Source of the DNA: Sulfitobacter sp. THAF37
Lineage (GTDB): Bacteria > Pseudomonadota > Alphaproteobacteria > Rhodobacterales > Rhodobacteraceae
Assembly: GCF_009363555.1 (NCBI RefSeq)
Contig: NZ_CP045372.1
Span: 62,001-126,000, forward strand
Direction of reading: 5' to 3'
DNA: 64,000 bases
Shown: one piece after another, positions 20,158-56,424 of the stretch
Position numbering within the stretch: position 1 is the stretch's first letter
Layout of the letters: each line of letters begins with the position of its first letter
Made by a program: the position numbers and the translations under genes
The notes under the pieces: model-generated
What the model saw: the letters and a program-made list of their open reading frames with translations, nothing else
What the model was told of the DNA's origin: nothing
The model's database searches: none

Positions 20158-21558
20158 TCAGACCTCCATCAGGTCCTCTTCTTCCTCGGCCTCTTCCAGC
20201 TCTTCGTCTTCGTCCAGCTCGACCGTCATCAGGCCCATCACGTCTTCCAGCGTGATCTCGCTGTCCGCGGCGGCATCCGCCGGATCGAAGGCCGGATCGT
20301 CGCTTGCGCTGACGCCCAGGACTTCGCCATCGCCGGTCTCGGAGTCGACCACAAGGCGCATGCCCGCGAAGTCGATATCGTCAATCGTGACGGCGCCATC
20401 GTCGGACCACAGGGTAAAGTTGGTCTGAGTGACCACTCCCTCCGAGCTGTCCGCGACCTGGCCGAACTGCAGACCCACATCGTAGGGCTGGTCCACGCCT
20501 GCGCCGCTGGGCAGTGTGGTCACGCTGTCCGCCTCGGCCTGAACGTCGGTCAGCTCGTAGCCTGGCGCGTTCTCGTCCGGGAAGAAGTTCAGCGAGTCGA
20601 GTTCGCTGTCGTCGGTCAGGTTGAAGAACAGGCCGTCGATATCGGTCGGCGCGCCATCAAAGCTCGTCTGGCTGATGCTGACGAACAGCTGGCCCTGCAG
20701 GTCCTGCGTGACCGAGATGTCGATCTCGCCTTCATCGCCCATCGTGTAGTGATAAGTGACCTTGCCGTCATCAGGCTCTTCTGTCGGTGTCTCCGGTTCT
20801 TCCGAACCCTTGGTCCCGCAGGAGCCCTTGCCGGTGCCATCGGAACCCTTGCCGGTCCCATCGGAGCCCTTGCCGGTGCCGTCGGAACCCCAGGACCACC
20901 ATTTACCGGAGCCATCGGAGCCCTTGCCAGTCCCGTCCGAGCCCTTGCCGGTACCGTCCGAGCCCTTGCCGGTGCCATCCGATCCCTTGCCGGTGCCGTC
21001 CGATCCCCAGGACCACCACTTGCCGGTGCCATCAGACCCCTTGCCGGTGCCGTCAGACCCCTTGCCGGTGCCGTCAGACCCCTTGCCGGTGCCGTCATGG
21101 CCATCGAACCAACGGTCGAACTTGTCCGCGAAATGCGACTTGGAGAAATGGTCAGACAGGTGATTGTCGTACCACTTGGAGAACTTCGAGCCTTCGATGC
21201 CGCCGTTGTGATAGGAGTTGCCGCCACATGCATCGCCGCCCGACCCCTTGCCGGTGCCGTCGGAGCCCTTGCCCGACCCTTTGGCTGTTCCGTCCGAACC
21301 CTTGCCCGAACCCTTGCCGGTCGCGTCAGAACCCTTGCCGGTGCCGTCAGAGCCTTTGCCGGTGCCATCGGAACCGCGATCCCACCACTTGTGCGACCCG
21401 TCCGAGCCCTTGCCAGTACCGTCAGACCCCTTGCCCGTCCCGTCGGAGCCGTGGCCCCAGGTCTTGCTGAAGTACTTGTGATGGTTGCTGTGGCTGTTCC
21501 ATGTGCTCTTCACATGGCTCTTTCCCCAAGAGCCGAAGCTCGAAAATCTGAATGTCAT
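20158..21558 (-). CDS. Heptad-repeat (GSDGTGK) protein with acidic C-terminal domain, 466 aa
   Basis: Not recognised as a named family. Residues 1-36 are aromatic, His- and Ser-rich (MTFRFSSFGSWGKSHVKSTW) with no Sec signal. Residues 37-104 and 155-250 are tandem GSDGTGK repeats (about 16 exact DGTGK units) broken by WWDR and WWSW. A spacer at 114-154 is rich in Lys, His, Phe and Trp. From about 267 to 450 there is an acidic, beta-rich domain (EIDISVTQDLQGQLFVSISQ, GLFFNLTDDSELDSLNFF) resembling extracellular beta-sandwich domains, then a Glu/Asp tail ending DLMEV. Secretion by a signal-less route, such as type I, is possible but unproven. It has a strong terminator and a long AT-rich upstream region. 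Confidence 0.75.
   Translation of the reverse strand: MTFRFSSFGSWGKSHVKSTWNSHSNHHKYFSKTWGHGSDGTGKGSDGTGKGSDGSHKWWDRGSDGTGKGSDGTGKGSDATGKGSGKGSDGTAKGSGKGSDGTGKGSGGDACGGNSYHNGGIEGSKFSKWYDNHLSDHFSKSHFADKFDRWFDGHDGTGKGSDGTGKGSDGTGKGSDGTGKWWSWGSDGTGKGSDGTGKGSDGTGKGSDGTGKGSDGSGKWWSWGSDGTGKGSDGTGKGSDGTGKGSCGTKGSEEPETPTEEPDDGKVTYHYTMGDEGEIDISVTQDLQGQLFVSISQTSFDGAPTDIDGLFFNLTDDSELDSLNFFPDENAPGYELTDVQAEADSVTTLPSGAGVDQPYDVGLQFGQVADSSEGVVTQTNFTLWSDDGAVTIDDIDFAGMRLVVDSETGDGEVLGVSASDDPAFDPADAAADSEITLEDVMGLMTVELDEDEELEEAEEEEDLMEV
20809..21450 (-). repeat. 21-bp coding tandem repeat (GSDGTGK codons)
   Basis: The DNA repeats with a 21-bp period, base-drifted mainly at third positions, so selection acts on the peptide rather than on recent duplication of DNA. 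The array is interrupted at 21097-21219 by the unique spacer. The opposite strand is open by consequence and reads a Pro-rich PLPVPSE pattern, which is taken as a shadow. Confidence 0.85.
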
Positions 21559-52480: not shown

Positions 52481-53151
52481 CCCAATACGACACACTGACC
52501 GCTCTCCTGGAGGCGCGCTATTCCTGCCGTGCCTTTTTGCCCGATCCCGTTCCGGACGAGACCGTCGAACGCATCGTCGACGCCGCCCGGCACGTGCCGT
52601 CCTGGTGCAATGCGCAGCCCTGGCAGGTCAGTGTCACCCGGGGAGCGGCCACCGACCGCTTCCGCGCGGCGCTGACGAAGGCCGCGACCGAAGGCACGCC
52701 GCCCAAGCCGGACCTTGCCTGGCCCAAGGGATATTCCGGCGCCTACGCCGAGCGCCGCCGCACCTGCGGTTTCCAGCTGTACGACGCGGTCGGCATCGAG
52801 AAATCCGACCGCAAGGCGCGCCAGGCGCAGATGCTGCGCAACTACGCGCTGTTCGACGCGCCGCATGTTGCCATCGTGCATTCCCCTGCCGAGCTTGGCC
52901 CCTACGGCGCCATGGATACCGGCGGTTTTGTCACCGCCTTCACCCTGGCGGCAACGGCCCTTGGGGTCGCCACCGTGCCGCAGGCCGCCATCGCGGCCTA
53001 TGCGCCGCTGGTCAGGGATCTGCTGGGCATCGGCAACGACCGGCTGGTGCTCTGCGCGATTTCGTTCGGCTATGCGGATCCGGACGCGCCCGCCAATGGG
53101 TTCCGCACCGAACGCGCCACGCCTTCCGACATCATGGACTGGCAGGACTGA
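52477..53151 (+). CDS. Nitroreductase-family protein, 224 aa
   Basis: FMN-dependent reductase fold: [40 protein letters not shown] and the C-terminal [20 protein letters not shown], where nitroreductases have GIP-x-x-x-x-x-x-GYP. The insertion containing [20 protein letters not shown] is seen in the larger nitroreductase branch. It probably reduces nitroaromatic or quinone-like compounds with NAD(P)H. The start overlaps the zinc-ribbon stop by four bases and dtd starts at its own stop codon. Confidence 0.88.
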
Positions 53152-53597
53152 TGCGCGCGCTGCTGCAACGCGTCACCAGCGCCTCGGTCACTGTCGCCGG
53201 GGAAAGGGTTGGCGAAATCGGCGCGGGGCTGCTGATCCTGGTCTGCGCGATGCCCCAGGACACGGAAGCGACAGCAGAGGCACTGGCGCAGAAGATCGCG
53301 AAGCTGCGGCTCTTCAAGGACGACGAGGGCCGGATGAACCTGAGCCTTGCGCAGACCGGAGGGGCGGCGCTGGTGGTCAGCCAGTTCACCCTCGCCGCCG
53401 ATACCTCGCGCGGGACGAGGCCCGGCTTTTCCTACGCGGCAAAACCTGATGCGGCGCGCGCACTCTACGAGCATTTCGTGCGGCGGGTGCAGGACCTCGG
53501 GATCGAAACGCAGACGGGGTCATTCGGCGCGGACATGTCCGTGGCGCTGGTCAACGACGGCCCGGTGACGATCTGGCTCGACACCGAAGCACCTTGA
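53151..53597 (+). CDS. dtd: D-aminoacyl-tRNA deacylase
   Basis: 148 residues, [20 protein letters not shown] then the substrate-binding [20 protein letters not shown] and the cross-subunit Gly-cisPro motif [10 protein letters not shown]. Removes D-amino acids mischarged onto tRNA. The ATG at 53151 shares a base with the preceding stop (TGATG), so it is translationally coupled to the nitroreductase gene. It is the last gene before the 19-bp minisatellite. Confidence 0.96.
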
Positions 53598-53743
53598 GCG
53601 GGCGATGCGCCATCGCAGGCTGTGTCGCGCAAGAGCTCCGCGCGACGTGGCGCGCCCCGGGTTCGGCGATCGGTTCTTTGCCTTGTCCGCCGCTCCGGGG
53701 CCATGACACATTGACCACCTGCCCCGATTGAGCCCGCCCTTCC

Positions 53744-54143
53744 ACCAAAAACCGCCCTTCCGGATCGACAAGGCGCCCTTTCTGCAAAGGCAGACCTTCC
53801 TGTAAAAGGCAGCCCTTCCTGCAAAAGGCAGCCCTTCCTGCAAAAGGCAGCCCTTCCTGCAAAAGGCAGCCCTTCCTGCAAAAGGCAGCCCTTCCTGCAA
53901 AAGGCAGCCCTTCCTGCAAAAGGCAGCCCTTCCTGCAAAAGGCAGCCCTTCCTGCAAAAGGCAGCCCTTCCTGCAAAAGGCAGCCCTTCCTGCAAAAGGC
54001 AGCCCTTCCTGCAAAAGGCAGCCCTTCCTGCAAAAGGCAGCCCTTCCTGCAAAAGGCAGCCCTTCCTGCAAAAGGCAGCCCTTCCTGCAAAAGGCAGCCC
54101 TTCCTGCAAAAGGCAGCCCTTCCTGCAAAAGGCAGCCCTTCCT
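53744..54143. repeat. 19-bp minisatellite, 17 perfect tandem copies plus degenerate left copies
   Basis: The unit GCAAAAGGCAGCCCTTCCT is repeated perfectly 17 times from 53821 to 54143 (323 bases). To the left, 53802-53820 differs by one base, 53784-53801 has one deletion and one substitution, and 53744-53783 holds two or three more decayed versions. Because 19 is not a multiple of three, every frame on both strands is open through the array and cycles the same 19-residue repeat; the minus strand reads GLPFAGRAAFCRKGCLLQE. I see no start, ribosome site or conserved flank that supports real translation. The surrounding 53598-54417 has no gene. Confidence 0.97.
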
Positions 54144-54183
54144 GCAAAAGAAGACATGTCAAAAATGACATGTCTTCTTTTGC
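54144..54183. terminator. Perfect 18-bp-arm hairpin adjoining the minisatellite
   Basis: GCAAAAGAAGACATGTCA pairs with TGACATGTCTTCTTTTGC around an AAAA loop. The first seven bases equal the start of one more repeat unit. The arms carry A-run and T-run ends, so it could terminate transcription in both directions, ending the dtd transcript before the CocE gene. Confidence 0.7.
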
Positions 54184-54417
54184 ATTCATGTGCCCCCAAA
54201 GCCCCCCGAATCGCTCATCCTGCGCGGCCGGGACCCGAAATGTTTCGCGCAATTGATCCCGCGCCGGCGCCGCGCGCGGGGCGTCGGGACGCCGGCCCTG
54301 CCAGGGCATGGCGCAGCCGGTCCCGCACAGCGCCCCACCCTGAAAGCAGCCCCGCCTGCCGCCCCCGGAGACGCTTCGACATTCCGGCAACAGTTGACAA
54401 ATCCGACGCCACCACGA

Positions 54418-56424
54418 ATGTCTGGCCGCATGAAAACCCCACAGAACAGCCTGCGCGACATCGTCGAAGAGCCCGACCTGGGCATCACATTGTCTGACGG
54501 GTGCCGCCTGTCCGTCCGGATGTGGCGCCCCGAAGATGCCCATGACGATCCGGTCCCGGTGATCCTGGAATATCTGCCCTACCGCAAACGCGACGGCACC
54601 TGCGCCCGCGATGCGCTGACCCATCCGTGGTTCGCGAAACACGGCTACGCCTGCCTGCGCGTCGATATGCGCGGAAACGGCGACAGCCAGGGCCTGATGG
54701 AGGACGAATACACCGCACAGGAACAGGCCGACGCTGTCGAGGTCATCAACTGGGTCGCGGCACAACCCTGGTGCAACGGCAGCGTCGGCATGATGGGGAT
54801 CAGCTGGGGCGGCTTCAACGGATTGCAGGTCGCCGCGCTGGCACCGGACCCGCTGAAGGCCGTCATCACCCTGTGCTCAACCGTGGACCGCTTTGCCGAT
54901 GACATTCACTACAAGGGCGGCTGCCTGCTGAACGAAAACCTCGGTTGGGGGGCGACCATGTGGTCTTTTTCCAGCCGCGCGCCGGACCCTGCCCTGCGCG
55001 AGGACTGGCGCGAGATGTGGCTGGAACGGCTTGAGGCGGAACCGTTTCTGCCCTCGCTCTGGCTGCGGCACCAGCGACGCGACGCCTATTGGCGGCATGG
55101 TTCGGTGATCGAGGACTACAGCGCCATCAAGGCAAAGGTGCTGGCCATCGGCGGCTGGGGCGACGGGTACAAGAACGCGGTACCGCAACTGGTCGAGGCG
55201 CTGCCGGGGGCCAAGGGCATCGTCGGCCCCTGGGTCCACAAATATCCGCATTTCGCGATCCCCGAACCGCGCATCGGCTTCCTGCAGGAGGCGCTGCGCT
55301 GGTGGGACCGCTGGCTCAAGGGCATCGACACGGGTGTCGAGAATGACCCCGATTACCGGGCGTATCTGATGGACGGCGTGCCGCCCGCCACATGGTATAC
55401 CGAACGACCCGGACGCTGGATCGCAGAGGCCAAGGGGGCGACGGCGCATCTGGAGACCAGCAGGCTGCACCTGACCGACACCGGCCTGTGCGACAGCGCC
55501 GCGCCCCTGACGGCCACCGTGTCCTCCCCGCCCCATTGCGGTGCCGATGCAGGCGAATACTGCGCCATCTGGCTGGGGCCGGAACTGCCCGGCGACCAGC
55601 GCGGTGACGATGCGCTTTCCACCACCTTCGACAGCGCGCCGCTAGAGCGTGACGTCGACATCGTCGGCGCGCCCCGGATCACCCTGACCCTGTCCAGCGA
55701 CCGGCCGCAGGCGCAGATCGCGGTGCGGCTGAACCACATCCACCCCGATGGCGCCGCCACCCGGATCACCTACGGCGTGCTGAACCTCAGCCACCGCGAG
55801 GATGCGGAAGCGGTCCGCCCGATGACACCGGGCGAGCCCGTGGTAATCACCCTCGATCTGGACCACATCGCCTACCGCGTGCCCGCAGGACATCACCTGC
55901 GCGTCTCGATCTCGGACGCCTACTGGCCGCTGATCTGGCCCAGCCCCACGCCCACGCGGCTATCGCTGACGGCAGGACACATCGACCTGCCGCAACGCCC
56001 CACCCCCGGCGGAGACGAACACCAGTTCGAGCCGCCGACCGCCGCCGACCCCTGGGAAACCGAAGAGCTGCGCCCCGAGGCCCACATCCGCCGGCGCGAA
56101 ACCGACATGGTGACTGGCGACATCACCCTCTTTATCGAGGATGACTTCGGCGCGGTCCGTGACTGCGATCACGGGCTCATCCACGGCTCGGTCGCCCGCG
56201 AGGCCTGGACCATCAATCCCGACGATCCGTTGTCGGCGCGCGGGCAGTGCCACTGGACCGACGAACTGGTCCGCGACGACATCGCCCTGCGGACGGAAAC
56301 GACCTGCATGATGACGGCCAGCGCCACGGCATTTCACCTCAATGCCCGCATCGAAGCCTATGAAAACGACGAGATGATCTACGCAAGAGACATCGAGGAC
56401 AGCATCCCGCGCGATCACATGTAG
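54418..56424 (+). CDS. CocE/NonD-family hydrolase (X-Pro dipeptidyl-peptidase-like), 668 aa
   Basis: Alpha/beta hydrolase: nucleophile elbow GMMGISWGGFNGLQVAALAP, preceding RVDMRGNGDSQGLMEDEYTA, and a C-terminal jelly-roll domain (DVDIVGAPRITLTLSSDRPQ; YRVPAGHHLRVSISDAYWPL). The family includes cocaine esterase and X-prolyl dipeptidyl acyl-peptidase; the substrate is an ester or an amide. ATG 54418 is taken, with 54430 as an alternative; neither has a strong ribosome site. No signal peptide, so it is cytoplasmic. The ABC importer genes follow after 122 bases. Confidence 0.85.
   Translation: MSGRMKTPQNSLRDIVEEPDLGITLSDGCRLSVRMWRPEDAHDDPVPVILEYLPYRKRDGTCARDALTHPWFAKHGYACLRVDMRGNGDSQGLMEDEYTAQEQADAVEVINWVAAQPWCNGSVGMMGISWGGFNGLQVAALAPDPLKAVITLCSTVDRFADDIHYKGGCLLNENLGWGATMWSFSSRAPDPALREDWREMWLERLEAEPFLPSLWLRHQRRDAYWRHGSVIEDYSAIKAKVLAIGGWGDGYKNAVPQLVEALPGAKGIVGPWVHKYPHFAIPEPRIGFLQEALRWWDRWLKGIDTGVENDPDYRAYLMDGVPPATWYTERPGRWIAEAKGATAHLETSRLHLTDTGLCDSAAPLTATVSSPPHCGADAGEYCAIWLGPELPGDQRGDDALSTTFDSAPLERDVDIVGAPRITLTLSSDRPQAQIAVRLNHIHPDGAATRITYGVLNLSHREDAEAVRPMTPGEPVVITLDLDHIAYRVPAGHHLRVSISDAYWPLIWPSPTPTRLSLTAGHIDLPQRPTPGGDEHQFEPPTAADPWETEELRPEAHIRRRETDMVTGDITLFIEDDFGAVRDCDHGLIHGSVAREAWTINPDDPLSARGQCHWTDELVRDDIALRTETTCMMTASATAFHLNARIEAYENDEMIYARDIEDSIPRDHM

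Follow-up and report, generated by a model that had tools for sequence, protein, structure and literature searches.

Human minisatellites mutate in a polarised manner, with variation concentrated at one end. The Bru-RS palindromes of Brucella are associated with octamer VNTRs, in which one octamer is repeated at several loci. MatP (matS), Noc and SlmA are small DNA-binding proteins with dispersed chromosomal sites. Palindromic units and REPINs occur as dispersed families and also as tandem clusters in which they are themselves the repeated element (PMC2884548, PMC3116915). Palindrome instability and SbcCD have been studied in E. coli (PMC4245961, PMC3315005). The accessible part of a survey of prokaryote satellites mentions no palindromic seed (PMC6749651). 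A literature search, in which few subscription journals were covered, yielded no description of the palindrome treated here or of palindromes seeding unrelated minisatellites. Among the matches listed, those for TGACATGTCA were unrelated, judged by title, and those on Sulfitobacter palindromes and Roseobacter intergenic palindromic repeats included nothing relevant by title or start of the abstract.

Sulfitobacter sp. THAF37 (G000), a marine bacterium with a main contig (C1) of 3.45 Mb, harbors a tandem array of a 19-bp unit downstream of dtd. The DNA analyzed, called the window, comprises 64,000 nucleotides of this genome. The features of the locus are, by window position:

53151..53597, + strand: dtd, D-Tyr-tRNA(Tyr) deacylase (Pfam PF02580), the upstream neighbour, which also lies beside a palindrome in G007 and DFL-14
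53726..53820, + strand: decayed array end with degenerate copies (edit distances of 2, 3, 8 and 6 from the unit; 53802-53820 matches it at 18/19)
53821..54143, + strand: perfect array, 17 exact copies of the 19-bp unit GCAAAAGGCAGCCCTTCCT (copy count, TRF)
54143..54150, + strand: array/palindrome junction TGCAAAAG, 8 bp in which the end of the repeat unit is the outer end of the left arm
54143..54184, no strand: dispersed palindrome of a 19-nt arm, an AAAA loop and a 19-nt arm, with the core GACATGTC-N6-GACATGTC at 54153-54174 (site G000:C1:116153-116174)
54418..56424, + strand: S15-type peptidase/acylase (Pfam PF02129/PF08530, gene model), the downstream neighbour, starting 233 bp past the palindrome

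The array probably belongs to a class of minisatellites, specific to their lineages, that are born de novo at the outer ends of a palindromic site dispersed over the chromosome. Minisatellites are rarely caught at birth. In this case the site is common to several species and the arrays are unrelated in each, so that where an array is seeded, where it grows and which way it ages are readable, and testable via the 42-bp palindrome. A matching uncharacterised protein provides a candidate factor and a new candidate protein-site pair.

The array consists of a unit within the 10-100 bp range of minisatellites, repeated head-to-tail. The 17 perfect copies described in an earlier note on this DNA are exact over the whole 323 bp; in another register, GGCAGCCCTTCCTGCAAAA, 18 exact copies are counted. 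TRF reports positions 53770-54150 with a period of 19, 20.2 copies, 98% matches and a score of 727, the highest in the window. The same note had described a decay gradient towards dtd. Its register places the 18/19 copy at 53802, and the copies are homogeneous at the hairpin and degenerate at the dtd side. The decay is regarded as real because the edit distances rise to those listed above once the exact copies of register GGCAGCCCTTCCTGCAAAA are passed. The status of the two outermost degenerate stretches as copies is doubtful. All three minus-strand frames cross the array, since the unit lacks a stop triplet; nothing was found to support a repeat peptide. Rfam gave eight matches with E-values of 1 or less, all far below the gathering score. 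The best by E-value, ncS011, reached 25 bits against 48 and was dismissed as a chance match on repeats. Elsewhere in the window, a 21-bp-based array at 20813-21457 is possibly coding (TRF), and a similar 42-bp repeat occurs in locus L182 of G007.

Searching the unit in other genomes had been proposed as a check. No counterpart of the array was present in 117 other genomes; at up to two mismatches, the unit had any match in 12 of the 117, with at most two scattered matches per genome. The array was not found among the plasmid records searched, and an exact 27-mer of it was absent from a scan of GTDB contigs. The intergenic place after dtd in G007 (best dtd match, 86% identical) contains the same kind of hairpin, its arms bearing a paired change, and an unrelated array of 8.5 hexamers on the same side. 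No array is present at the dtd palindrome of DFL-14. From this absence in 117 genomes and the unshared arrays at the orthologous palindrome, the 19-bp array looks young, in agreement with the recent expansion that the earlier note had named alongside active homogenisation.

The hairpin had been noticed before, but its membership in a dispersed palindrome family, the common factor, had been missed. It is perfect over 42 bp, and the surrounding 71 nt folds as RNA at -34.4 kcal/mol (z -8.8). Across 62 genomes of the genus, exact matches to the core GACATGTC-N6-GACATGTC number 39 in G000, 30 in G007, 39 in G053 (DFL-14) and 4 in G010; the other 58 genomes have zero exact sites. The core is often embedded in a longer inverted repeat. 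The background, 800 kb picked at a distance from known sites, contains one core match with three mismatches per 400 kb, which is taken as chance. Among the matches listed from a GTDB scan, Roseovarius azorensis and several Rhodobacteraceae MAGs also have the core, within outer arms that differ, and scattered matches fall in unrelated groups. Seven genomes reached through loci, one of them DFL-14 again, contain 13, 32, 2, 3, 2, 2 and 39 cores. One IMG/VR contig (L320) was found with the pattern GACATGTCANNNNTGACATGTC, with 45 bp on each side identical to R. azorensis L228.

In G000 all 39 sites are located on the 3.45-Mb contig C1, and the remaining 0.82 Mb has none (p 0.003, counted as 27 loci). 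The sites of G000 and G007 form 64 clusters, 62 of which are intergenic (35 convergent, 5 divergent). The remaining two are syntenic sites within one long gene, identified in G000 as cobN by Pfam, where the full core lies inside the gene (L109 in G000, L145 in G007); syntenic sites exist in DFL-14 (L266) and G010 (L197). Palindrome doublets occur in L101, L103, L116 and L117. At L121:2001-2282 a 70-bp unit that includes the palindrome itself is repeated in four tandem copies.

Arrays cluster at these palindromes, most strongly in G000, the window's own genome. The sample comprised the 69 sites of G000 and G007 with 2-kb flanks and the 800 kb of background away from listed sites. Arrays were counted at a TRF score of at least 60, and intergenic regions of at least 100 bp were taken from a simple codon-bias gene model. 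Arrays with the core in the unit or covering more than half a palindrome were left out, so the 70-bp array of L121 is uncounted. In G000, 10 arrays lie within 60 bp of a palindrome (4.05 kb) and one at 60-2000 bp (105 kb; binomial 5e-14), and 9 of 35 clusters carry an array (26 do not). In G007 three arrays lie near palindromes and four at 60-2000 bp; 3 of 29 clusters carry one and 26 do not. The two 400-kb halves of the background contain 8 and 9 arrays. By intergenic region, arrays occur in 9/26 palindrome-bearing versus 3/182 palindrome-free regions of G000 (p 3e-7), and in 4/27 versus 3/185 regions of G007 (p 0.006). The scarcity in palindrome-free regions bears out, for this genome, the remark that intergenic VNTRs are uncommon. 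Hairpins outside the family (background, arm of at least 10 bp) had an array within 60 bp in 0 of 48 cases, 43 of them with arms of only 10-12 bp. At score 60 and for sites among the matches listed, arrays were found in 3/33 clusters of DFL-14, 1/4 of G010, 1/19 of the M2 MAG and 1/11 of other Rhodobacteraceae, in 0/9 of R. azorensis and in 0/31 with the core outside Rhodobacteraceae. With the clusters of G000 and G007 added to these, the total for Rhodobacteraceae is 18/140, which differs from the 0/48 hairpins with p 0.008 and from the 0/31 foreign sites with p 0.046. The shortest array period is 6 bp and the longest 34, or 74 by the initial TRF entry for L121. Most palindrome sites are without an array.

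The palindromes appear older than the arrays. For 22 of the 27 G000 palindrome loci, the DNA to one side or both is also found beside a palindrome of G007, DFL-14 or G010. In 21 orthologous groups (score of at least 50; one locus per genome, excluding L107 and a second DFL-14 locus at L116), 14 loci in 12 groups carry arrays, and no array is shared, judged by the units. Twice, at dtd and at L115/L269, the same place is occupied by unrelated arrays in two species. In a dtd tree of 31 genomes, G000, G007 and G053 form one clade. It is well supported by these sequence comparisons that the palindrome is the old part and has probably seeded arrays repeatedly, because positions are common between congeners, arrays are unshared and the decay gradient recurs in a congener.

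Growth at the hairpin end had been proposed for the 19-bp array. Adjacent-copy distances, which need no reference unit (those of the edit-distance gradients were author-chosen), are 0 for 17 steps outward from the dtd palindrome and then 2, 5, 8 and 9. An unrelated 18-bp array at a like palindrome of a congener (G010 L193) shows the same polarity, with outward distances of 0, 0, 0, 0, 0, 2, 3, 3, 1, 3, 2, 2 and 7, in line with the proposal. Of the seven arrays examined, these two, the longest graded ones, show clear polarity, with the freshest copies adjoining the palindrome. It is weaker in the same sense at L122 on both sides (counted as two of the seven) and at L118, and slight at L123. L121 opposes it, with the poorest copies nearest the palindrome, 46 bp off. 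Of 19 arrays with a score of at least 60, 12 reach into the palindrome or to within 10 bp of it, and 7 stop 13-46 bp short. Exact periodicity enters the arm in five of the 19: dtd by 8 nt, L122 (right) by 8, L118 by 9, G010 L193 by 5 and DFL-14 L269 by 1. Polarity and junction fit slippage or repair copying that would restart near the base of the palindrome. GC skew and KOPS-like motifs, the latter as in E. coli, place the G000 origin at about 1.15 Mb and its terminus at about 3.0 Mb. The arrays at dtd, L110 and L115 lie one way and those at L103, L114, L118 and L121 the other; L122 has both and L123 is near the terminus. A comparison by hand of array side with the fork direction inferred from skew revealed no relation, and a fork-direction bias was rejected.

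The following mechanism is proposed. Polymerase or repair synthesis reaching the palindrome would stall near its base. The stalled synthesis would slip back by one unit length and recopy the flank. Each round would add a copy at the palindrome, and older copies would be pushed outward and decay. These steps are inferred from the polarity and junctions. With less assurance, stalling may be due to a factor that recognises the core, and not to hairpin strength alone. Such a factor would most likely be a small uncharacterised protein with the same site in the 5' region of its own gene.

It is quite possible, if short of probable, that the hairpin suffices: the palindrome would be extruded as a hairpin or cruciform while the DNA is replicated, and any palindrome of equal strength would give rise to arrays without a binding protein. 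Polymerase slippage at a hairpin has been reported in vitro (PMC4134008), and the dtd site folds strongly. Some orthologues differ by paired changes in the outer arms, e.g. GAAGAC/GTCTTC at dtd in G000 and GATGAC/GTCATC in G007, likewise L116/L150 and L118/L131, and their loops are AAAA or TTTT. Paired arm and loop changes are what templated hairpin copying would give and suggest such copying; the invariance of the core is partly by construction, because cores were selected as exact matches. The DFL-14 dtd palindrome, however, is mismatched where the copies of G000 and G007 pair. Against the hairpin alone also stand the 0/48 other hairpins, mostly of those short 10-12 bp arms, and the 0/31 foreign clusters among the matches listed. 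Stem length was rejected as a predictor of arrays (12 sites with and 57 without, p 0.83). A search for SbcD in 60 of the 62 genus genomes (E<=1e-10) gave no match in G007, G010 and G053, and in G000 only on the smaller contig C4, so that none of the four palindrome-bearing Sulfitobacter has an SbcD-like match on the main contig. Such a match is present in 40 of 51 other genomes at least 90% complete, mostly below the family cut-off, and 11 of the 51 are without any. The G000 gene (G000:C4:90147-90881) is nevertheless above the cut-off, and one of the seven palindrome genomes reached through loci (DFL-14 among them), a MAG, has an SbcD-like match. The association of palindromes with a lack of SbcD is only a lead, since it reflects two or so independent events.

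Seeding at the palindrome has also to be set against explanations in which the site plays no part. Ordinary slippage from a chance seed, with palindromes and arrays merely co-residing in long tolerant intergenic regions, would agree with the intergenic and often convergent position of the clusters and with two G007 arrays at 120-300 bp from a palindrome. It is nonetheless unlikely, as G000 has no score-60 array at 60-300 bp, palindrome-free convergent regions have arrays in only 2/20 (G000) and 2/34 (G007) cases, and 12 of the 19 arrays end inside the palindrome or no more than 10 bp from it. An independent function of the array, as a ladder of weak minus-strand terminators or as a 19-residue repeat peptide, is very improbable. 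A terminator-like pattern occurs on the minus strand at 17 places in the array (18 in a 1.5-kb region versus 2.6 expected), and the minus-strand frames are open, but the 17 matches are one motif repeated. The missing array in the 117 genomes and the missing 27-mer in the GTDB contig scan speak against such a function, as do the unrelated units at sister palindromes, where 13 of 19 periods are not multiples of three. Least credible of all is an assembly artefact or contamination. A run of 323 bp of perfect copies is hard for short reads; yet C1 is a contig of 3.45 Mb, the flanks of the array are syntenic with congeners, and other assemblies hold the same class of array.

For recognition of the core, a candidate partner is encoded in G000 by a gene for an uncharacterised 128-aa protein (L101:2298-2684 = G000:C1:312569-312952), preceded by a palindrome doublet. 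Homologues adjoin palindromes in several other genera as well, an adjacency that is biased because the loci were fetched through palindromes. A protein search, which is free of this bias, found the family of about 105 aa once per genome in 5 of 62 genomes of the genus, namely the four with GACATGTC palindromes and G004, a 64%-complete MAG without GACATGTC sites. Two palindromes before the G004 gene show the same 14-bp architecture with another core. Dispersal of this core in G004 only had been predicted; GATRYATC-N6-GATRYATC has five sites in G004 (L341-L346), three of them new because two were already seen before the gene, and none in the 61 other genus genomes. Protein and palindrome co-occur with Fisher values of 9e-6 for the original core and 1.5e-7 for either core (partly post hoc), representing fewer than five independent events because G000, G007 and G053 form one clade. 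The 5' region of each of the five homologues in the genus contains a site, whether full, half or variant; the gene of G007 keeps one half-site.

Among 5.8 billion proteins the family has 123 homologues (E<=0.001). It matches nothing in Pfam, NCBIfam or PHROGs and shows weak profile similarity only, to designed alpha-helical repeat proteins. Homologues on viral contigs occur at six loci with five distinct upstream regions, and plasmid homologues in nine records, from five of which upstream regions were obtained. The pattern TGA....TCA-N4-TGA....TCA is present at up to one mismatch in 3 of these 10 distinct regions, where no more than 1 of 300 shuffles did as well in each case; the remaining seven fall below. 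The viral L347, L348 and L349 have 14-bp-spaced TGA....TCA half-sites 18-35 bp before the start (three by eye in L348), and 14-bp-spaced half-sites are seen by eye in two plasmid regions that did not pass. The small protein is thus a candidate binding partner of the palindrome, and its DNA binding is inferred from sequence. A joint reading, of a two-part system so far undescribed, can be advanced tentatively, with rather more doubt than trust. A family of small proteins of about 105 aa without known domain, also found on phages and plasmids and in some cases with 14-bp-spaced half-sites before the gene, may use a putative autoregulatory operator that became a set of chromosome-wide sites in some Rhodobacteraceae. 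Protein-bound sites might then act as replication roadblocks nucleating minisatellites, including the 19-bp array.

The palindromes resemble those of the REP/REPIN-RAYT system (PMC3116915) and the palindromic units and BIMEs of E. coli (PMC2884548) in being short, dispersed, extragenic and sometimes arranged as doublets. With REP/REPIN-RAYT they also have in common one associated single-copy gene with palindromes beside it, and gene-palindrome co-variation (PMC3116915). Minisatellites of palindromic units are built of the palindrome itself (PMC2884548), while the arrays described here are built of unrelated flanking DNA. The associated gene belongs to an unnamed family and does not encode a Y1 transposase, and the palindromes are on its 5' side. 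The Y1 (IS200-like) transposase PF01797 has no match in G000 and one in G007, and a RAYT/REPIN origin was rejected on the former ground. Most palindromes here, unlike REP/REPIN, keep orthologous positions. As with MatP/matS, Noc and SlmA, palindromic sites are dispersed, here confined to the main replicon (39 sites on C1, 0 in the remaining 0.82 Mb); the candidate protein differs in matching no named family. The Bru-RS elements of Brucella likewise combine VNTRs with dispersed palindromes in an alphaproteobacterium, whereas each locus here has its own unit. Human minisatellites share the one-ended variation; the present case is bacterial and haploid, with a palindromic site as the putative initiator.
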